From Brachypterus glaber (lineage: Eukaryota > Arthropoda > Insecta > Coleoptera > Kateretidae): DNA of 64,000 nucleotides. Below are positions 1,054 to 60,757 of this stretch, piece by piece (position 1 is the stretch's first letter; each line of letters opens with the position of its first letter). The stretch lies in NCBI GenBank assembly GCA_958510825.1, contig OY294051.1, positions 4,558,353-4,622,352 of the forward strand, in the 5' to 3' direction. A program made the position numbers and the translations under genes. The notes beneath the pieces were generated by a model. That model worked only from the letters and a program-made list of their open reading frames with translations. It was not told the DNA's origin and did not search any database.

Positions 1054-2328
1054 CTAATTAAAAGTACAATTGTGAAACACACAATTTTCAAATTTTAGTC
1101 CTTGTTTTGTATTTGGTGCAATAATGCTGGAAGATGAACTAATGGTTGTTGTTGCCCTATCTTGTGCTAAATTCTTGTCTTGTACCAAAGGTAGTACTGG
1201 TGCTAAATTAGATTCTATATTAGATGAACGAACTTTATCTAATATGGTGGTATGATGTTCTTCATTTAGTTGTAAATATGGCTTTATAGATGAGGAACTT
1301 GAGTGGCCACTAATTTTTATTAATTCTTGCTCTTGTACTCCTTGCCTAACCATATTTGAAATGACTGTGGCGCGACTAGAATGATTTGTAATTTTTCTCT
1401 TTTTTGTGTCCAATCCAGCCTTTTTCGCAGATATTTTATTCCACTTAGAAAAAGTATTTTTTCCAACTGGGCTATTCTTGTACCATATTCCGGTTTCTTT
1501 CCAGTTAGGATTCGCAGTTAAAAAAAATCGATTAGTAATTATATTTTTAATCCGTTTTTCTACCAGTTTTTTATATAATCGAACAGGACATTTATCAGCA
1601 TTCTGGGTATTTGGTGTAAGCCATTTATTGTCACTACATTTTTGATCTCCTCCTTGACAAGTTTTCGTAAATACCGGATTGTAAATAATTCTTCTAGATT
1701 TCTCACCGTTATTTTTCATTTCTTCTTGAAAATGCCCCAATAAACAATTTACACCTTCGCCGCCGCGCCAAGCTAATTCAACAGACGCGATGTGAAAAAA
1801 TTTCATCTGGAGCCCACTAGGAGTATTTTCATCATTTGCGTTAATCATTAAATGGTACTCGTCCACCTCCATAGCAGATGCACTTAATTTTCTTTTCGCT
1901 GGGTTTGATTGGAGTTGCTTTCTAATTGCGTTTTTAGCCATTCTAGCGTTCGAAAACTCTACATCTATAAAAGGATTAAAGCTTCTTTGGTATTCGGTAA
2001 AATATTTTTCCTGTAAAATTTTTGCCGTCGTATTCCATATTGTTTTTAAGGAACACTCTTTGTATTCTTCCCCGTTAACTTTCCTCATATTTATAGCCCA
2101 TGTTTTTAATACTGATGCTATTTCATCGATTGTGGTTGTGCTGTCCAATAAATAACCTTTTTCCTCGCAAAATTCAGTAAACTGCTTCCATATGGAATTT
2201 TTCGTCCTCACAGTGTTAACCGGCACAGCTGATTTTAAAATTATTTCCACATTTTCTTCAGAAATACTAGCAAATCTATCGCCCATTTTTAAAAGTTTAC
2301 TATGAAGACGCGCAAATGACTTATTCAC
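1054..2328 (-). CDS. Crypton-type tyrosine recombinase (transposase)
   Basis: A 424-residue uninterrupted frame with the signature of a eukaryotic Crypton tyrosine recombinase, related to the domain captured in vertebrate KIAA1958 and ZMYM-type proteins. The catalytic set is visible: Arg188 in AWRGGEG, His316-x-x-Arg319 in NHSSRAT, His342 in SGHSSSSS and candidate nucleophile Tyr351 in KPYLQL. The N-terminal part (about 20-110) resembles a SAM-like core-binding domain with KSAVPVNTVRTKNSIWKQF. The C-terminus ends in FENCVFHNCTFN, a Cys-rich tail seen in this family. The enzyme would cut and rejoin DNA through a phosphotyrosine link to move the element. The start at 2328 is the first Met; Met15 (KMGDRF) is an alternative. 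The frame is intact and every key residue is kept, so the copy is young or has been retained. Confidence 0.85.
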   Translation of the reverse strand: MNKSFARLHSKLLKMGDRFASISEENVEIILKSAVPVNTVRTKNSIWKQFTEFCEEKGYLLDSTTTIDEIASVLKTWAINMRKVNGEEYKECSLKTIWNTTAKILQEKYFTEYQRSFNPFIDVEFSNARMAKNAIRKQLQSNPAKRKLSASAMEVDEYHLMINANDENTPSGLQMKFFHIASVELAWRGGEGVNCLLGHFQEEMKNNGEKSRRIIYNPVFTKTCQGGDQKCSDNKWLTPNTQNADKCPVRLYKKLVEKRIKNIITNRFFLTANPNWKETGIWYKNSPVGKNTFSKWNKISAKKAGLDTKKRKITNHSSRATVISNMVRQGVQEQELIKISGHSSSSSIKPYLQLNEEHHTTILDKVRSSNIESNLAPVLPLVQDKNLAQDRATTTISSSSSIIAPNTKQGLKFENCVFHNCTFN

Positions 2329-2448
2329 AAACTAATTTGACAGTACTTTTCATAGGTGCTGTGATATTGTTCAAATACTATTTTCTTGGTTACCCGCAAC
2401 TAAAATTCATAGTAACGGAAAAAATCCTCAGTACCAGGGATTTTTTCG

Positions 2449-23392: not shown

Positions 23393-23943
23393 GGCAGACT
23401 AACATCTCTACTCTAAATTTCTCTACTCCCTAACATCCCTACTCCATAACATCCTTACTCCATAACAACTCTACTCCGTAACATCTCTACTCCATAACGT
23501 CTCTACTCCTTAACAACTCTACTCCACACTATATGCACTTTATTAGCCACTTAATAATAAATGAGCAGTTAAAAGAACAAAGAATCTTCTTCTTCTAGAT
23601 TATTTAATTTTTTTCCTAGAAAACGTTTATCTTTAAATGTAAATTTAGAACAATCATAAATTAATTATTCTAAAAGCAGCAATGACCGCGTACTCTTAAC
23701 ATGCACTAATATGTAAGTAATTAATAAACTGAATTCATTTTTGACACTGACTTAGCATGACAAATATTCTTTTGAGTTAAGACAAGTGGCTAATCGAGTG
23801 TCTATAGTGTGAAGTAGAGTTGTTACGGAGTAGAGATGTTAAGGAGTAGAGATGTTACGGAGTAGAGTTGTTGTGGAGTAGGGATGTTATGGAGTAGGGA
23901 TGTTAGGGAGTAGAGAAATTTAGAGTAGAGATGTTAGTCTGCC
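23393..23943. mobile_element. Foldback-like element with tandemly repeated inverted arms
   Basis: Inverted arms of about 165 bp (23393-23562 and 23784-23943) begin GGCAGACTAACATCTCTACT. Each arm is built from about seven degenerate 17-18 bp units of the form CTCTACTCCATAACATC. The inner arm edges pair too (TTATTAGCCACTT against AAGTGGCTAAT). Short tandem repeats making up the inverted arms are the defining feature of Drosophila FB elements. The central 220 bp is AT-rich and non-coding. The flanks share an ATTTAATT-like phrase that may be a target duplication. Confidence 0.8.
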
Positions 23944-30010: not shown

Positions 30011-31463
30011 CACGGTGTATTTGAAATAGCGTAGGAAATTTTAACAGATGATTCTACATCATAAAATATGACAAAAAGTTCCTATAAACATATGTCTAAA
30101 AATGCGTCATAATGGAGCTACGCCCCTTTGAAAGTGGCTAAAAAAAATCGGTTTTTATTTAATAACTCAGGAACCCTTTGAGATATATCAACGAGGTTTT
30201 GTACGTCAACTAACCCTATCAAGGCCCGTTTTTATGTGTTATTTTCATGTACTTATTTCAACCAGGGGTGTGCGAAACGGGGGGGGCTTATCAGTTTTTT
30301 GTCCCAAACTTTTTTCTGTGTAACTTTTTTGCAATTTTATTTTTGAAATATGATTCCTCAGGTCAAAATATACAAAAAAGGTACTCTTGTTCTAATACTG
30401 TAGGATTAACCGTTTTCAAGAAAAATTCATTTGAAGGTGAAATTCCACGGTTCGAGGACGAAAAATTAAATACTAAAATGTTGAAAACCAAAATTTGAAT
30501 GATGCAGAGCGAATGTACATTAAAAACTAAGAAAAAAAACCTCATATACAGGTACTTCCAAAAATCAATCCTAATGGAGCTATGGTCTCCTAAATTTGCA
30601 CCATTTTTAAAGGGCTATGCTAGCTTTAAAAGCGTTTTTTCGACCTACATGTATGGAAACTTTTTTTCTTAGTTTTTGATGTAGAAGAACATTGCATCAT
30701 TAAAATTTTGGTTTTCGACATTTTAGTATTTAATTTTTCGTCCTCGAACCGTGGAATTTCACCTTCAAATGAACTTTTCTCGAAAACGGTTAATCCTACA
30801 GTATTACAACAAGAGTACCTTTTTTGTATATTTTGACCTGAGGAATCATATTTCAAAAATAAAATTGCAAAAAAGTTACACAGAAAAAAGTTTGGGACAA
30901 AAAACTGATAAGCCCCCCCCGTTTCGCACACCCCTGGTTGAAATAAGTACATGAAAATAACACATAAAAACGGGCCTTGATAGGGTTAGTTGACGTACAA
31001 AACCTCGTTGATATATCTCAAAGGGTTCCTGAGTTATTAAATAAAAACCGATTTTTTTAGCCACTTTCAAAGGGGCGTAGCTCCATTATCATCCTTTTTT
31101 ATGTATTTTGACCTGAGGAATCATATTTCAAAAATAAAATTGCAAAAAAGTTACACTGAAAAAAGTTTGGGACAAAAAACTGATAAGGCCCCCCGGTTTC
31201 GCATACCCCTGGTTTAAATAAGTAGGTGAAAATGATATACAAAGATGGGCCTTATTGGGATTAATTCACGTGCAAAACCTCGTTAATATATCTCAAAGGG
31301 TTCTTGAGTTATTAAATAAAAACCGATTTTTTTAGGCCAATTTCAAAGGGGCGTAGCTCCCTTATGACGCATTTTTAGACATATGTTTATAGGAACTTTT
31401 TGTCATATTTTATCATGTAGAATCACCTGTTAAAATTTCCTATGCTATTTCAAATACACCCTG
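30011..31463. mobile_element. 1.45-kb palindromic element with duplicated right arm
   Basis: Ends CACGGTGTATTTGAAATAGC and GCTATTTCAAATACACCCTG are inverted, with TA just outside. The left arm (30011 to about 30520) pairs with two successive right-arm segments, because a segment starting TTTTGACCTGAGGAATCATA is present at 30831 and again at 31106 (offset 275, with several differences). Short frames on both strands (such as 30247-30498 and 30626-30952) are mirror images created by the palindrome and are not genes. The GGTGATTCTACAT phrase ties it to the 11806 element. Confidence 0.85.
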
Positions 31464-33657: not shown

Positions 33658-34790
33658 CAGGGTGTCTGAAAAAGCAGGTCAAATCTAACAAATTTAATAT
33701 AGCCATAACTCATTTTTTTTAAATGGCACCCTACATTTTTTTTTATTTGGTTAAATAGAGAATTAAATTTGCTTTAAAATAAGTATAGGATACCCTATAC
33801 CTAACTTTAACCGTTTTTGAGCTATTTGCAAATTATTGTGAAAAAGCCGTATTTCTGTTAAAATTTGTTATATTTTATAAAATAGGCCAGAAAAATTAAT
33901 CGATTTTTATTTATTTACCTCAAAGATCATTATATTTACCTTAAAACTGGATTTTCATGCGCCCAGTAGTGTACATTTCTTCTGTTAAAAATACCCTGTT
34001 GAGAAAATTTAGCCTCGTCCGTCCAAATTATTCTTTTTAAAAAGTTTTGTTTTTCTTGAATATTTATCAAAAGATTTTCACAAAAGTCCACTCTATTTTG
34101 AAAATCATTAGGTTTTAAGGCCTGTATTTTTTGCTTTTTGTAATCGTGCATCTTGTGGTTTTTTAAAATTCTTTGGATGCTTGAATAGGAAATTCCCAAG
34201 TCGTAACTAGCTGCAGGAATTGAGGCATGTGGATATGCATAAAAGTAACCCAAAACATTGACTTCGTTATCTTCGTTGTTTGTAATTGGTTTCGTAAGAG
34301 ATTTCACTGCATTTTCTTTTCCAAATTGCGAAAAATTTTTGTGTATTCTTCTAAACTTTTTACATGACATTCTTGGTAAATCAGGATATTTTGTATTAAA
34401 GTTTCTGCAGGTTCTACTAATTATTTTATCATTTTCACCAAAAATAGAAAATAAATCCAAAATAACAGGGTAAGAATAAGCCTCTGCCATTATTTTACAC
34501 TAATTTATCACGATAAGAACGATAACATTTAGGTTAAAAGAAATAAAAATACAATACAATTTTAAAAATTTACGTAATTGCAGAAATACTGCAAAATACT
34601 TCTTTTTCACATTAATTTGCAAATAGCTCGAAAACGGTTAAAGTTAGGTATAGGGTATCCTATACTTATTTTAAAGAAAATTGAATTCTCTATTTAAACA
34701 AATAAAAAAAAATGTAGGGTGTCATTTAAAAAAAAAGAGTTATGGCTATTTTAATTTTGTTAAGTTTGACCTGCTTTTTCAGACACCCTG
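33658..34790 (-). mobile_element. Inner Tc1/mariner element (1133 bp)
   Basis: Inverted ends start CAGGGTGTCTGAAAAAGCAG and extend about 215-225 bp, with TA at both junctions. The interior encodes a truncated transposase (33936-34490). It is shorter than an autonomous element because the catalytic half of the gene is missing. Confidence 0.9.
33936..34490 (-). CDS. Truncated Tc1/mariner transposase, copy 1
   Basis: A 184-residue frame. Residues about 10-55 and 85-118 look like the two helix-turn-helix DNA-binding units (CRNFNTKYPDLPRMSCKKF and YDLGISYSSIQRILKNHKM). The first catalytic Asp is at 158 in IIWTDEAKFSQQGIFNRRNV, followed by HYWAHENP. The protein then ends at residue 184, so the second Asp and the final acidic residue of the DDE/D triad are absent. 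It could bind element ends but should not cut DNA. The equivalent frame in copy 2 differs by one residue (Arg153 to Ile). The downstream DNA before the inverted repeat contains no remnant of the missing half. Confidence 0.8.
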   Translation of the reverse strand: MAEAYSYPVILDLFSIFGENDKIISRTCRNFNTKYPDLPRMSCKKFRRIHKNFSQFGKENAVKSLTKPITNNEDNEVNVLGYFYAYPHASIPAASYDLGISYSSIQRILKNHKMHDYKKQKIQALKPNDFQNRVDFCENLLINIQEKQNFLKRIIWTDEAKFSQQGIFNRRNVHYWAHENPVLR

Positions 34791-38369: not shown

Positions 38370-39502
38370 CAGGGTGTCTGAAAAAGCAGGTCAAATCTAA
38401 CAAATTTAATATAGCCATAACTCATTTTTTTTAAATGGCACCCTACATTTTTTTTTATTTGGTTAAACATAGAATTAAATTTGCTTTAAAATAAGTATAG
38501 GATACCCTATACCTAACTTTAACCGTTTTTGAGCTATTTGCAAATTATTGTGAAAAAGCCGTATTTCTGTTAAAATTTGTTATATTTTATAAAATAGGCC
38601 AGAAAAATTAATCGATTTTTATTTATTTACCTCAAAGATCATTATATTCACCTTAAAACTGGATTTTCATGCGCCCAGTAGTGTACATTTCTTCTGTTAA
38701 AAATACCCTGTTGAGAAAATTTAGCCTCGTCCGTCCAAATTATTATTTTTAAAAAGTTTTGTTTTTCTTGAATATTTATCAAAAGATTTTCACAAAAGTC
38801 CACTCTATTTTGAAAATCATTAGGTTTTAAGGCCTGTATTTTTTGCTTTTTGTAATCGTGCATCTTGTGGTTTTTTAAAATTCTTTGGATGCTTGAATAG
38901 GAAATTCCCAAGTCGTAACTAGCTGCAGGAATTGAGGCATGTGGATATGCATAAAAGTAACCCAAAACATTGACTTCGTTATCTTCGTTGTTTGTAATTG
39001 GTTTCGTAAGAGATTTCACTGCATTTTCTTTTCCAAATTGCGAAAAATTTTTGTGTATTCTTCTAAATTTTTTACATGACATTCTTGGTAAATCAGGATA
39101 TTTTGTATTAAAGTTTCTGCAGGTTCTACTAATTATTTTATCATTTTCACCAAAAATAGAAAATAAATCCAAAATAACAGGGTAAGAATAAGCCTCTGCC
39201 ATTATTTTACACTAATTTATTACGATAAGAACGATAACATTTAGGTTAAAAGAAATAAAAACACAATACAATTTTAAAAATTTACGTAATTGCAGAAATA
39301 CTGCAAAATACTTCTTTTTCACATTAATTTGCAAATAGCTCGAAAACGGTTAAAGTTAGGTATAGGGTATCCTATACTTATTTTAAAGAAAATTGAATTC
39401 TCTATTTAAACAAATAAAAAAAAATGTAGGTTGTCATTTAAAAAAAAAGAGTTATGGCTATTTTAATTTTGTTAAGTTTGACCTGCTTTTTCAGACACCC
39501 TG
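38370..39502 (-). mobile_element. Inner Tc1/mariner element in copy 2
   Basis: Same 1133-bp length, ends and TA junctions as 33658-34790. Confidence 0.9.
38648..39202 (-). CDS. Truncated Tc1/mariner transposase, copy 2
   Basis: 184 residues, identical to the copy at 33936-34490 except Ile for Arg at position 153. It has two helix-turn-helix units and the first catalytic Asp (158), but no second or third acidic residue. The intact frame is more easily explained by recent copying than by selection, though an inhibitory role is possible. Confidence 0.8.
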   Translation of the reverse strand: MAEAYSYPVILDLFSIFGENDKIISRTCRNFNTKYPDLPRMSCKKFRRIHKNFSQFGKENAVKSLTKPITNNEDNEVNVLGYFYAYPHASIPAASYDLGISYSSIQRILKNHKMHDYKKQKIQALKPNDFQNRVDFCENLLINIQEKQNFLKIIIWTDEAKFSQQGIFNRRNVHYWAHENPVLR

Positions 39503-46593: not shown

Positions 46594-47190
46594 TTTTATT
46601 TTTTATTGTTTTGAGCTAAAATATGGCAGAATCTTGTTTTCGGTTGAAAAATAGTTATTTATGGTACTAGTGGGTAAAGTAAGATATGGTCCATGAGAAA
46701 ATTAACCTGCAAGGCGTCAGCCAAGCAGGTTAATTTTCGAGAGGGCAATATCGGTTTACATATGAGTGCCATACAAGGTTTTATCCAATAAATAGCTTAG
46801 AAATTCATATTTTTATTAAAAATTTTAATGACATTTACAAGAAAATAATTTGACAAGTGACAGTTGAGTGGGTAAAATAAATAATTAATATAAAATAATA
46901 ATTTATTTTTTATTGTTTTGAGCTAAAATATGGCAGAATCTTGTTTTCGGTTGGAAAATAGTTATTTATGGTACTAGTGGGTAAAGTAAGATATGGTCCA
47001 TGAGAAAATTAACCTGCAAGGCGTCAGCCAAGCAGGTTAATTTTCGAGAGGGCAATATCGGTTTACATATGAGTGCCATACAAGGTTTTATCCAATAAAT
47101 AGCTTAGAAATTCATATTTTTATTAAAAATTTTAATGACATTTACAAGAAAATAATTTGACAAGTGACAGTTGAGTGGGTAAAATAAATA
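46594..47190 (+). repeat. 307-bp tandem duplication including a family A end
   Basis: The phrase TATTGTTTTGAGCTAAAATA plus the following family A sequence is present from about 46594 and again from about 46901, nearly identical. The duplication is recent and copied flank and element together. Confidence 0.85.
46654..46887 (+). mobile_element. Family A element, truncated
   Basis: First half of the element as in 46961-47286; it stops at GGGTAAAATAAATAATTA where the tandem duplication begins again. Confidence 0.85.
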
Positions 47191-47286
47191 ATTATCCACT
47201 CAATAGAGTAAAAGCCACTCGGGGGTTATTATTGAGTTTATCTATTTAAAATAAAGCTGGTAATTGTCTCATTATCTGTATGTATT
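46961..47286 (+). mobile_element. Family A element
   Basis: GTTATTTATGGTACTAGTGG to CTGTATGTATTT; the last bases of the usual end are lost. Confidence 0.9.
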
Positions 47287-51709: not shown

Positions 51710-54690
51710 ATTATCGAGAATAAAAGGAATTTTATGGGCAAATTTTGTTTCTTCAGGAATAATTTTTATGCACAAGTATTTTTAGTGAAAGCTTTATTAT
51801 AGAATCCTTAAATATGTACTAATGGTATTGAAAACGTACAGACATCAGATTTCCGGGCTAAATGTGATTCATTTTCAGATATTATCGAGAATAAAAGCAA
51901 TTTTATGCGCAAATTTCGTTTCTACAGGAATAATTTTTATGCACAAGTATTTTTAGTGAAAGCTTTATTATAGAATCCTTAAATATGTACTAATGGTATT
52001 GACAACGTACAGACATCAGATTTCCGGCCAAAATGTGATTCATTTTCAGAAATTATCGAGAATAAAAGCAATTTTATGCACAAGTATTTTTAGTGAAAAC
52101 TTTATTATAGGATCCTTAAATATGTACTAATGGTATTGACAACGTACAGACATCAGATTTCCGGCCAAAATGTGATTCATTTTCAGATATTATCGAGAAT
52201 AAAAGCAATTTTATGCGCAAATTTTGTTTCTACAGGAATATTTTTTATGCACAAGTATTTTTAGTGAAAGCTTTATTATAGAATCCTTAAATATGTACTA
52301 ATGGTATTGAAAACGTACAGACATCAGATTTCCGGCCTAAATGTGATTCATTTTCAGATATTATCGAGAATAAAAGCAATTTTATGCGCAAATTTCGTTT
52401 CTACAGGAATAATTTTTATGCACAAGTATTTTTAGTGAAAGCTTTATTATAGAATCCTTAAATATGTACTAATGGTATTGACAACGTACAGACATCAGAT
52501 TTCCGGCCAAAATGTGATTCATTTTCAGAAATTATCGAGAATAAAAGCAATTTTATGCACAAGTATTTTTAGTGAAAACTTTATTATAGGATCCTTAAAT
52601 ATGTACTAATGGTATTGACAACGTACAGACATCAGATTTCCGGCCAAAATGTGATTCATTTTCAGATATTATCGAGAATAAAAGCAATTTTATGCGCAAA
52701 TTTTGTTTCTACAGGAATATTTTTTATGCACAAGTATTTTTAGTGAAAGCTTTATTATAGAATCCTTAAATATGTACTAATGGTATTGAAAACGTACAGA
52801 CATCAGATTTCCGGCCTAAATGTGATTCATTTTCAGATATTATCGAGAATAAAAGCAATTTTATGCGCAAATTTCGTTTCTACAGGAATAATTTTTATGC
52901 ACAAGTATTTTTAGTGAAAGCTTTATTATAGAATCCTTAAATATGTACTAATGGTATTGACAACGTACAGACATCAGATTTCCGGCCAAAATGTGATTCA
53001 TTTTCAGAAATTATCGAGAATAAAAGCAATTTTATGCACAAGTATTTTTAGTGAAAACTTTATTATAGGATCCTTAAATATGTACTAATGGTATTGACAA
53101 CGTACAGACATCAGATTTCCGGCCAAAATGTGATTCATTTTCAGATATTATCGAGAATAAAAGCAATTTTATGCGCAAATTTTGTTTCTACAGGAATACT
53201 TTTTATGCACAAGTATTTTTAGTGAAAGCTTTATTATAGAATCCTTAAATATGTACTAATGGTATTGACAACGTACAGACATCAGATTTCCGGCCAAAAT
53301 GTGATTCATTTTCAGATATTATCGAGAATAAAAGCAATTTTATGCGCAAATTTTGTTTCTACAGGAATATTTTTTATGCACAAGTATTTTTAGTGAAAGC
53401 TTTATTATAGAATCCTTAAATATGTACTAATGGTATTGAAAACGTACAGACATCAGATTTCCGGCCTAAATGTGATTCATTTTCAGATATTATCGAGAAT
53501 AAAAGCAATTTTATGCGCAAATTTCGTTTCTACAGGAATAATTTTTATGCACAAGTATTTTTAGTGAAAGCTTTATTATAGAATCCTTAAATATGTACTA
53601 ATGGTATTGACAACGTACAGACATCAGATTTCCGGCCAAAATGTGATTCATTTTCAGATATTATCGAGAATAAAAGCAATTTTATGCGCAAATTTCGTTT
53701 CTACAGGAATAATTTTTATGTACAAGTATTTTTAGTGAAAGCTTTATTATAGGATCCTTAAATATGTACTAATGGTATTGACAACGTACAGACATCAGAT
53801 TTCCGGCCAAAATGTGATTCATTTTCAGATATTATCGAGAATAAAAGCAATTTTATGCGCAAATTTTGTTTCTACAGGAATATTTTTTATGCACAAGTAT
53901 TTTTAGTGAAAACTTTATTATAGGATCCTTAAATATGTACTAATGGTATTGACAATGTACAGACATCAGATTTCCGGCCAAAATGTGATTCATTTTCAGA
54001 TATTATCGAGAATAAAAGCAATTTTATGCACAAATTTCGTTTCTACAGGAATAATTTTTATGTACAAGTATTTTTAGTGAAAGCTTTATTATAGGATCCT
54101 TAAATATGTACTAATGGTATTGACAACGTACAGACATCAGATTTCCGGCCAAAATGTGATTCATTTTCAGATATTATCGAGAATAAAAGCAATTTTATGC
54201 GCAAATTTTGTTTCTACAGGAATATTTTTTATGCACAAGTATTTTTAGTGAAAACTTTATTATAGGATCCTTAAATATGTACTAATGGTATTGACAATGT
54301 ACAGACATCAGATTTCCGGCCAAAATGTGATTCATTTTCAGATATTATCGAGAATAAAAGCAATTTTATGCGCAAATTTTGTTTCTACAGGAATATTTTT
54401 TATGCACAAGTATTTTTAGTGAAAACTTTATTATAGGATCCTTAAATATGTACTAATGGTATTGACAACGTACAGACATCAGATTTCCGGCCTAAATGTG
54501 ATTCATTTTCAGATATTATCGAGAATAAAAGCAATTTTATGCGCAAATTTCGTTTCTACAGGAATAATTTTTATGCACAAGTATTTTTAGTGAAAGCTTT
54601 ATTATAGGATCCTTAAATATGTACTAATGGTACTGACAACGTACAGACATCAGTTTTCCGGACTAAATGTGATTAATTTTCAGATTTATT
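51710..54690. repeat. 171-bp satellite with higher-order structure
   Basis: Using the marker ATTATCG, unit starts fall at 51710, 51881, 52052, 52189, 52360, 52531, 52668, 52839, 53010, 53147, 53318, 53489, 53660, 53831, 54002, 54173, 54344 and 54515. Fifteen of these 17 steps... in detail, the steps are 171 bp except for three of 137 bp (from 52052, 52531 and 53010), where about 34 bp containing CGCAAATTTCGTTTCTACAG is missing. From 51881 to 53318 the pattern 171+137+171 = 479 bp repeats three times with shared variants. Later, variants alternate with a 342-bp period (53660/54002 and 53831/54173). The unit has no coding frame. The first and last units are the most diverged, as expected for array edges. 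Confidence 0.95.
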
Positions 54691-59473: not shown

Positions 59474-60108
59474 TAAAATTATATATACTTTTCACTGCCA
59501 AAGTTTGTAACTAGGCTAATAAATCACCCTGTATTAGAGAATGATTTGTTTTCAGTGAAAAGTTTACATAGCCTAATATATACCCAAAAATGCTTAGTTA
59601 TGGGCATTTGCCGGTTTAAATGCACAGCCAGTCCGACGCTGGTTAAAAAGTATGTATATGCTTTTGTTTTATAAAATTTTAAGGTTGTTGTTTTTGTTTT
59701 ATAAAAGCTTGCGGTAGTTTTATTCCCAGTAGTCCTATAAATAAACGTTTGTTTTAACTGTAGGTAAAACTGCTTATATTTATTTCAGTTTGATACAAAA
59801 AGTATTTTATTAAATGAGGGATAATTTAAATCTATTAAGCTAAAAAACCTTTTTCTTCAAGCGTACTGAAAATATTCATATTTTATAACTGAACACAAAC
59901 ATAGAGATTTGATCTAAACAAAATCGAAATCAGGAACAAAATCGAAATCAGGAACAAAATCACTATTAGAATTGTGCAAAAGAAATTACAGTTTGTTACT
60001 GTTGTTTAGCATGTAGTCTGCGGAAGAACTTTTATCACTATTTAACATCTAGTGCTCATTAGGATTTCGTTCTTAGAAGTTTTGAAGTTTACAGACCCTT
60101 TGCTAACA
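59474..60108. other. Non-coding stretch
   Basis: AT-rich; a short tandem CAAAATCGAAATCAGGAA occurs twice near 59918-59957. No gene. Confidence 0.4.
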
Positions 60109-60150
60109 TAATTATTAATGAGTTAGGTATTTCGTGGCATGTTGGACATT

Positions 60151-60236
60151 GAACATTAGAGGGAAAACCGTGTACAGCACTGTTTCAACCTTATTTGGTA
60201 TCATCAGCACAGTATATTCCCAATGGCCTAATGTTC
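60151..60236 (-). ncRNA. Type I hammerhead ribozyme, unit 1
   Basis: On the minus strand: helix I 5' strand GAACAUUAG...GGGAA...ACUGUG; core CUGAUGA (60201-60207); stem II ACC/GGU with a U-U at its base; core GAA-A (60183-60186); stem III ACAG/CUGU with a UG loop (60174-60183); A17 (60173); then helix I 3' strand CACGGU...UUCCC...CUAAUGUUC. Helix I has 6, 5 and 9 bp blocks separated by internal loops, one of the form UAU/U near the core where natural ribozymes make tertiary contacts. Predicted cleavage lies between 60173 and 60172. The mismatch at the base of stem II, where G-C is usual, may slow it. Confidence 0.7.
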
Positions 60237-60467
60237 GTTTTAGTTGAAAAGAAAAGATAAATCACATAAGGTACAAGTGCCAAAAAGATTCAAATTTTCG
60301 TTCATAATATTTCGCTCATATTTTGAGCTTCAAATGTGATTGCGATGGAGAATCCAGCACAAGCACCTTAAATAATTTTTCTGCCGGTATATATGTATTA
60401 CATAAAATTAAGCTATCGCGTCCATAAATATATATTGAGTTAGGTATTTCGTGGTATGTTGGACATT

Positions 60468-60553
60468 GAACATTAGAGGGAAAACCGTGTACAGCACTGT
60501 TTCAACCTTATTTGGTATCATCAGCACAGTATATTCCCAATGGCCTAATGTTC
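60468..60553 (-). ncRNA. Type I hammerhead ribozyme, unit 2
   Basis: Identical to the first over all core and helix bases, displaced by 317 bp; CUGAUGA is at 60518-60524. Two ribozymes in tandem would release a unit-length RNA from a longer transcript. Confidence 0.7.
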
Positions 60554-60757
60554 GTTTTAGTTGAAAAGAAAAAAAAGATAAATCACATAAGGTACAAGTG
60601 CCAAAAAGATTCAAATTTTCGTTCATAATATTTCGCTCATATTTTGAGCTTCAAATGTGATTGCGATGGAGAATCCAGCACAAGCACCTTAAATAATTTT
60701 TCTGCCGGTATATATGTATTACATAAAATTAAGCTATCGCGTCCATTAATTATTAAT

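Follow-up and report, generated by a model that had tools for sequence, protein, structure and literature searches.

Metazoan non-LTR retrozymes are the closest described relatives of the locus reported here. In the sections of PMC7229834 on which we draw, they are non-coding, consist of tandem units of a few hundred base pairs with a type I hammerhead and low GC content, and are flanked by target duplications longer than 4 bp. Those sections propose a circular RNA as the template and put Penelope-like elements forward only as strong candidate helpers. An earlier note on this DNA held that few such elements had been described in detail in animals; with accounts from coral, mussel and axolotl in PMC7229834, as far as the text used here extends, they are better described than that implied. 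In plants, LTR retrozymes carry type III hammerheads in their LTRs, a PBS, a PPT and 4-bp duplications (PMC4918200, portions cited).

Penelope-like elements themselves are better understood at the level of the enzyme. For the Anolis enzyme PAc, the portions of PMC11167929 considered here report that reverse transcription starts internally at two adjacent sites, that the cut motif is ATT, that both strands are extended and do not differ in where synthesis starts, and that the two sites are linked to the genomic "tail". For Penelope of the rotifer Adineta vaga, the relevant part of PMC3846280 reports terminal repeats in inverted orientation, one of which bears a 31-bp tail, along with duplications of 8 to 10 bp.

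Here we describe an insertion on the minus strand of a 64-kb stretch of DNA, which was analysed in full and is called the window below. It resembles the metazoan retrozymes in each of the properties listed above, and its genome also has Penelope-like elements. With plant LTR retrozymes it shares the character of a hammerhead-bearing, non-autonomous retroelement with a proposed circular RNA template, but its hammerhead is type I and its duplication is 11 bp. The likeness to Penelope-like elements, as far as they are treated in the cited parts of PMC11167929 and PMC3846280, extends to two adjacent internal starts, apparently AT-rich targets, short duplications, head-to-head terminal copies, an optional "tail" of ~31 to 40 nt and a hammerhead upstream of the start sites; in contrast to them, the focal element codes for no protein and most of its copies are one-sided. 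The fixed start sites, head-to-head copies and Penelope-shared ends of this genome are not described in the sections of PMC7229834 cited, and we found no report of fixed start sites, twin priming or shared ends in retrozymes within the portions of the open-licence literature that we consulted.

Results

The focal insertion

The insertion consists of two direct units of ~317 bp enclosed by exact 11-bp repeats (Table 1), as the earlier note had claimed. Tandem Repeats Finder placed the array at 60107-60757 with a period of 321, 2.0 copies and a 96% match. The tandem pair stands as described, with the correction that 317 bp is not the exact length of both units, the 5' unit being longer by ~4 bases in a (CTTTT)n tract. 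The 11-bp repeats are not extendable: the bases before them are A and T and the bases after them are G and A, and these differing bases rule out that the repeats form part of a longer duplication. The GC content of the insertion is 0.343, and that of the 64-kb window is 0.299.

Table 1. Features of the focal insertion (window coordinates)
Feature	Position	Strand	Basis
Target site duplication, left, TAATTATTAAT	60109..60119		Exact 11-bp repeat, not extendable
Target site duplication, right, TAATTATTAAT	60747..60757		Exact 11-bp repeat
Probable retrozyme insertion, about two circuits of the 317-nt unit	60120..60746	-	Tandem repeat and copy comparison
Predicted hammerhead ribozyme, type I, 3' copy	60152..60224	-	Strict scan; HH9 22 bits, below gathering score
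Predicted hammerhead ribozyme, type I, 5' copy	60469..60541	-	Strict scan; Rfam score
Predicted self-cleavage GUA^C, phase 317/1, 3' copy	60172..60173	-	Core read as hammerhead
Predicted self-cleavage GUA^C, 5' copy	60489..60490	-	Core read as hammerhead
Putative reverse-transcription start site 1 of the insertion, RNA ...CCTAACTC|ATTA	60119..60120	-	3'-end clustering, duplication start
AU-rich stretch after start site 1, internal unit, phases 54-64	60426..60436	-	Sequence
Putative start site 2 position, phases ~87-92	60398..60403	-	Used in copies L020, L021, L023, L043
(CTTTT)n tract, ~4 extra bases in 5' unit	60560..60580	-	Sequence

The repeated unit is non-coding, with a longest stop-to-stop run of 61 amino acids; the element is therefore non-autonomous and not a member of the Penelope-like elements. 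A full Pol III B box was absent from the unit when simple patterns were used. Two classifications were rejected: an autonomous Penelope-like element for want of coding capacity (a frame with reverse transcriptase [RT] and GIY-YIG is absent), and a plant LTR retrozyme on the length of the duplication, 11 bp against 4 bp. The features by which retrozymes are recognised are present, namely, a type I hammerhead in each unit, tandem units within ~150 to 450 bp in dimers to multimers, a GC content below 45 to 50%, the lack of coding sequence and dispersed copies with duplications longer than 4 bp, though not in every copy.

We number positions of the unit as phases in the RNA sense, phase 1 being just after the cleavage site. 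The RNA 5' end of the insertion (60746) has phase ~65 and the RNA 3' end (60120) has phase 53. The 3' boundary is thus ~53 nt past the cleavage, and the earlier observation that the boundaries do not coincide with the cleavage sites holds. The AU-rich stretch of phases 54 to 64 is missing at both ends of the insertion; its copy in the internal unit could pair with the target primer.

The window contains several other repeats and open frames. A tandem 307-bp pair at 46595-47194 is 99% alike, and one strand of its unit folds at -83 kcal/mol; a 275-bp tandem pair (90%) lies at 30818-31365 and an array of 171/137-bp units at 51710-54689. The strict hammerhead scan described below was negative at all three. 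Arrays of a 16-bp unit at 23400-23526 and 23813-23936 have opposite orientations and lie ~290 bp apart. A 425-amino-acid open frame at 1057-2331 (minus strand) has DUF3504 and phage-integrase matches, and we take it to be the gene of a Crypton-like transposon. Near-identical copies of a 187-amino-acid frame lie 4712 bp apart at 33936-34499 and 38648-39211 (minus strand), and the first has a Tc3-like transposase domain match below the Pfam cut-off.

The predicted hammerhead

On the minus strand, the focal unit reads ...GGGAAUAUACUGUG-CUGAUGA-UACC(AAAUAA)GGUU-GAA-ACA(GUGC)UGU-A^CACGGU.... The predicted hammerhead has a stem I of 6 bp plus outer helices, a stem II of 3 bp with U-U at its base and a stem III of 3 bp with a GUGC loop. 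By description only, it can be likened to HHR_Amex2 of the 350-bp salamander repeats, the axolotl hammerhead in which stem II likewise has a basal U-U mismatch and a short stem III is capped by a tetraloop (PMC7229834, cited sections). It differs from the minimal Penelope hammerhead in its 3-bp stem III with a tetraloop.

A strict type I scan of both strands of the 64-kb window (core CUGANGA/GAA, NUH; stem I of at least 5 bp, stem II of at least 3 bp with one mismatch allowed, stem III of at least 3 bp) found exactly these two sites, in agreement with the claim of one minus-strand hammerhead per unit, and 100 dinucleotide shuffles gave none. With respect to background, the predicted hammerhead was clear in this structural scan, but the Rfam cut-offs were not reached: no Rfam family attained its gathering score in the 64-kb window, and the best score was 22 bits for HH9, whose gathering score is 52 (E value of 0.011 for a 1-kb stretch). 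The focal copies were also missing among the 26 matches of a genome search with RF00163 (73 candidates scored).

Unconstrained energy minimisation of the ribozyme stretch retains stem II and the helices of stem I but pairs the core CUG with the stem III strand, and the resulting fold is not exactly a hammerhead. One focal unit folds better than its shuffles (z of -3.8). We also compared the focal hammerhead with nine loci from the RF00163 search, leaving out L078 and the 436-bp family described below. Across these ten loci, pairing holds in 90.7% of the cells and 11 cells have changes on both sides, values that none of 500 shuffles reached; nine of the ten were found by a hammerhead model, so this pairing is partly built in. 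Three pairs have changes on both sides, a number matched by 361 of the 500 shuffles, and the count of further pair types was matched by 499. In the copies chosen by overall similarity, divergence is 2.1% in the ribozyme, 2.3% in the adjacent sequence, 3.3% in the whole rest and 1.1% at the catalytic positions. The ribozyme is barely more conserved than its neighbours; mostly dead insertions would give this picture, and this comparison neither helps nor harms the reading as a ribozyme.

Copies of the element in the genome

Searching the genome (648 Mb, 842 contigs) gave at least 67 matches to the focal element, with 40 of 156 candidates scored. Further copies had been proposed as a check on the earlier reading, and a single occurrence is ruled out. 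Ribozyme cores within three mismatches number 90 genome-wide, and the reversed-pattern control gave 0. The copies are dispersed, and many of their flanks carry AT-rich duplications, 11 bp long at the focal locus and commonly 8 to 18 bp in other copies, as expected of a retrozyme-like element with a target duplication. Their median divergence from the family majority is 2.2%.

We examined 64 segments at 58 loci, 44 chosen by overall similarity and 20 by ribozyme pattern. The latter (L047-L066) were picked by a core pattern spanning the cleavage junction and contain core and junction by construction; conservation figures and split end counts therefore use the similarity-chosen set. Two loci of the core-pattern list were left out of the copy set. 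L024 lies inside L052 and the flanks of L062 are those of L056, and one of each pair was kept.

Full units are mostly 317 to 322 bp (28 units; range, 284 to 336), and loci span from part of one unit to ~8 units. More than one unit is present in 25 of the 64 segments, and copies of 1.0 to 1.1 unit span the cleavage junction. One unit of L013 has apparently lost phases ~311 to 26 and with them the cleavage region. Full units are more similar within a locus (0.986) than between loci (0.946), and the nearest neighbour belongs to the same locus in 14 of 19 cases. With the exception of L015, insertions showed few rare variants that every unit had in common, and segregating sites were used instead. 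At nine such sites, unit pairs from the same insertion agree in 475 of 493 comparisons versus 287 expected, the many-unit locus L010 contributing many of these pairs.

Start sites and target duplications

The 3' ends of the copies are strongly clustered. Phases 44 to 67 hold 49 of the 64 ends and phases 92 to 109 hold seven, with eight elsewhere (Kolmogorov-Smirnov [KS] test versus uniform, 2e-21); for the 44 similarity-chosen segments, the corresponding counts are 32, 5 and 7 (KS, 1e-12). The eight off-site ends include L013 and L015, where the alignment broke up longer chains; the outermost pieces of these chains end at 66 and 59. After shared-word correction, site 1 lies at phase 53 (CCTAACTC|) and site 2 at ~87 to 92, so that the second putative start site is ~34 to 39 nt beyond the first. 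The 5' ends spread over phases 14 to 316 and, when pooled, do not depart from uniform (p of 0.38); within both subsets they are non-uniform (p of 0.004 and 1e-5), partly from how the copies were chosen. The cleavage junction is crossed in 42 of the 44 similarity-chosen segments. Because the copies cross it, the template was either circular or a multimer that had not been cut; copies of this kind cannot come from a self-cleaved linear monomer.

Of 50 simple insertions, 27 share a word of at least 10 nt between their two junctions, versus 4.3% in permutations, and 12 share one of at least 13 nt, versus 0.2%. No shared word of 7 nt or more was found in 13 of the 50. The simple insertions are the 64 segments minus 14 (inverted arms, L035, L009a and L009b). 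For L024 and L025, the scored word belongs to the element itself, and L025 also has an 11-nt target word. Among 26 copies chosen for shared words of at least 9 nt (L011, L024, L025, L058 and L061 were left out), the duplication begins with AT in 17 (ATT in 9, ATA in 7 and ATC in 1), a raw count in DNA whose GC content, at 0.299 for the window, is itself low. Taken together, the clustered ends, the duplications and the crossing of the junction in copies across the genome much strengthen the earlier proposal that a circular or multimeric RNA was reverse transcribed.

Head-to-head copies

Eight focal loci have an inverted arm (L009b, L021, L023, L035, L042, L043, L055 and L066). In L021, L023, L042 and L043, words of 11 to 13 bp are shared at the outer ends; the other four are without a convincing duplication, their outer words being 5 to 7 nt. 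A cross-pair control gave 90 values with a mean of 5.9, all of them 8 or less except two that reach 13. One side lies at site 1 and the other at site 2 in L023 and L043, and in L021 and L042 one outer end is at a fixed site and its partner is at neither. L042 sits in an older repeat, four insertion-free paralogues of which (L115-L118) carry the target once and align through the joined flanks.

A second hammerhead family, with a 436-bp unit, was found through RF00163 and has at least 188 matches (40 of 985 candidates scored). Its minimal hammerhead with flanks folds at -39.1 kcal/mol. We read 29 loci, of which L070-L076 and L081 were chosen by the hammerhead model and L089-L108 by whole-unit similarity, the latter being 20 of the 39 loci among the matches listed, taken in list order. 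Copies are head-to-head in 26 of the 29. Each of these 26 copies has one outer end at phases 63 to 89 and the other at 109 to 116 (4 is to be added for the reset cleavage site), typically ~40 nt apart; the three remaining loci are one-sided and end at 114, 70 and 113. Outer shared words of at least 11 bp occur in 22 of the 26 head-to-head copies (null, 1.2%), and the other four have words of 8 to 10 bp that are individually not distinct from chance (null for at least 9 bp, 12%).

With corrected ends in 25 copies (L081, counted among the 29 loci, was dropped), site 1 is at 65 to 78 and site 2 at 101 to 123, with a spacing of 23 to 56 nt, mostly 37 to 49, and duplications of 8 to 15 bp, most commonly 12. 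Independent choice between the two sites with equal odds at each end would yield 25 mixed pairs with a probability of 3e-8. Arms are longer than one unit in 25 of 50 cases, the site-1 arm is the longer one in 12 of 25 copies, and short overlaps are common at the inner junction. A large array of this family (G000:C2:14170731-14175377, in L087) measures 4,647 bp, or about 10.6 units. From its left end we predicted beforehand a right end near phase 70 with a duplication, and found phase 73 with a 14-bp duplication.

A third family (L067) consists of older copies that are 73 to 93% identical, apart from the query itself. Among the 45 matches listed (40 of 401 candidates scored), 22 end at 244 to 270, 8 at 284 to 313 and 14 elsewhere, and one is the query; the two clusters, ~40 nt apart, may hint weakly at two sites. 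Older hammerhead loci related to the focal one are L067, L068, L069, L078, L082 and L084. L077, L083 and L086 are older loci with another hammerhead type, and L085 is a further older hammerhead locus.

Penelope-like elements of the genome

The genome has at least 125 GIY-YIG matches (150 of 419 candidates scored), several of them in open frames of 777 to 813 amino acids and some in tandem. One Penelope-like unit, read in part, has 600 open codons with GIY-YIG at the end. Pfam did not recognise the RT domain of this protein directly; RT was assigned by homology because relatives carry PF00078, together with PF26215. A PDB search with the protein gave 0 matches. Among the 120 rows of relatives listed, those named to species are insects (Diabrotica, Coccinella, Polistes, Callosobruchus and flies), which makes an insect the probable host of the element.

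Several of these elements are in tandem in L109-L114, where minimal hammerhead-like motifs with a palindromic stem III can be seen by eye upstream of the reading frame; the core in L110 has a one-base insertion. Neither Rfam nor a pattern search found a hammerhead in the leaders, of which five were submitted to Rfam. Of the 44 leader matches listed (40 of 733 candidates scored), 37 end at query positions 175 to 186, two are full length, one ends at 226 and the remaining four are adjacent inverted partners ending at 143 to 158. All four inverted leader copies that were read have ends 64 to 79 nt and 98 to 107 nt past the presumed cleavage, uncorrected. Their outer shared words are 15, 17, 9 and 15 nt; a cross-pair control gave 12 values from 5 to 14, and the 9-nt word is within this chance range. 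A layout with two sites, one per end, is thus common to the Penelope-like element and the 436-bp family and is also seen in two focal copies. PAc differs from these copies in that its strands are alike in start site (PMC11167929, portions cited). Comparison of the retrozymes with the Penelope leader gave only AT-rich matches of 12 nt and 18 nt, with no further homology.

Discussion

We consider it likely that the focal element is a non-autonomous animal non-LTR retrozyme whose insertion relied on target-primed reverse transcription of the Penelope type, with two start sites and a probably circular RNA as template. That the RNA cleaves itself and forms circles, that a Penelope enzyme acts on it and how the overhangs are arranged are points that we infer from sequence. 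A multimeric transcript would cleave itself, and a host RNA ligase would close the monomer into a circle. An enzyme from a Penelope-like element would then cut the two strands of an AT-rich target at staggered positions near AAAT|ATTA, so that ~12 nt overhang at the 3' ends, and one or both of these ends would prime reverse transcription on the circle at one of two fixed sites ~35 to 45 nt apart. Synthesis might run from less than one to about ten circuits; since a circle has no ends, each copy would record where reverse transcription started and how long it ran. Joining of the free end to the other side would give a one-sided, truncated insertion, as in most focal copies. Alternatively, two cDNAs might be joined head-to-head, as in the four focal copies with duplications and in 26 of 29 loci of the 436-bp family.

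An uncut linear multimeric transcript, with circles playing no part, is in our view an unlikely template. A homogeneous tandem array also predicts both unit-to-unit agreement and junction crossing, and hammerhead cleavage is dispensable in the Penelope in vitro system (PMC11167929, portions cited). Such RNA circles are abundant in other animals (PMC7229834, sections cited), an array of about ten near-identical units entered as a single insertion, 25 of the 50 arms of the 436-bp family exceed one unit and the copies of 1.0 to 1.1 unit span the junction; these points weigh against the linear multimer and are not decisive. Duplication at the DNA level, by unequal crossing over or by integration of extrachromosomal circular DNA between chance direct repeats, would account for tandem units in AT-rich surroundings. 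It is extremely improbable given the clustered 3' phase, junction words shared far above permutation, head-to-head copies inside one duplication and the paralogous empty sites for L042, and we rejected satellite formation by unequal crossing over as the main explanation on the shared words, the 3' phase and the empty sites. Duplication of this kind may explain the growth of some arrays.

Twin priming by L1 uses varied internal sites. In 26 of 26 copies of the 436-bp family, the two arms have their outer ends at different fixed sites, and a Penelope-like element of this genome is arranged alike, both of which make it quite improbable that the element was mobilised by a LINE with an APE endonuclease (L1/RTE-like) and ordinary twin priming. 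Long AT-rich duplications and 5' truncation are also LINE-like, though, one outer end of L021 and of L042 is off both fixed sites, and Nematostella repeats flanked by 15-bp duplications have been proposed to move by way of LINEs (PMC4918200, portions cited). The inverted copies could also have arisen by self-priming on an antisense template, as the cited part of PMC3846280 proposes for rotifer Penelope, and the inner junction often shows short overlaps. We find this improbable to a similar degree: self-priming leaves unexplained why the two outer ends, which share words, used different start sites in 26 of 26 copies, and a Penelope enzyme is reported to cut the two target strands and extend each of them in vitro (PMC11167929, portions cited).

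Returning to Penelope-type priming on circles, we lean slightly toward a more specific form of it, in which circles insert by a paired two-strand reaction of a dimeric Penelope-type enzyme that uses one fixed site per target strand and is shared by retrozymes and Penelope-like elements. Such a reaction would begin with a staggered cut leaving 3' overhangs of ~12 nt, with start sites ~40 nt apart, and end with rolling cDNAs joined head-to-head. With two rolling cDNAs joined in this way, second-strand synthesis on an integrated first strand would not be needed. The two-site, one-per-end pattern ties retrozymes to the Penelope-like element and provides a concrete model of how the puzzling inverted copies and "tails" of Penelope-like elements would arise.
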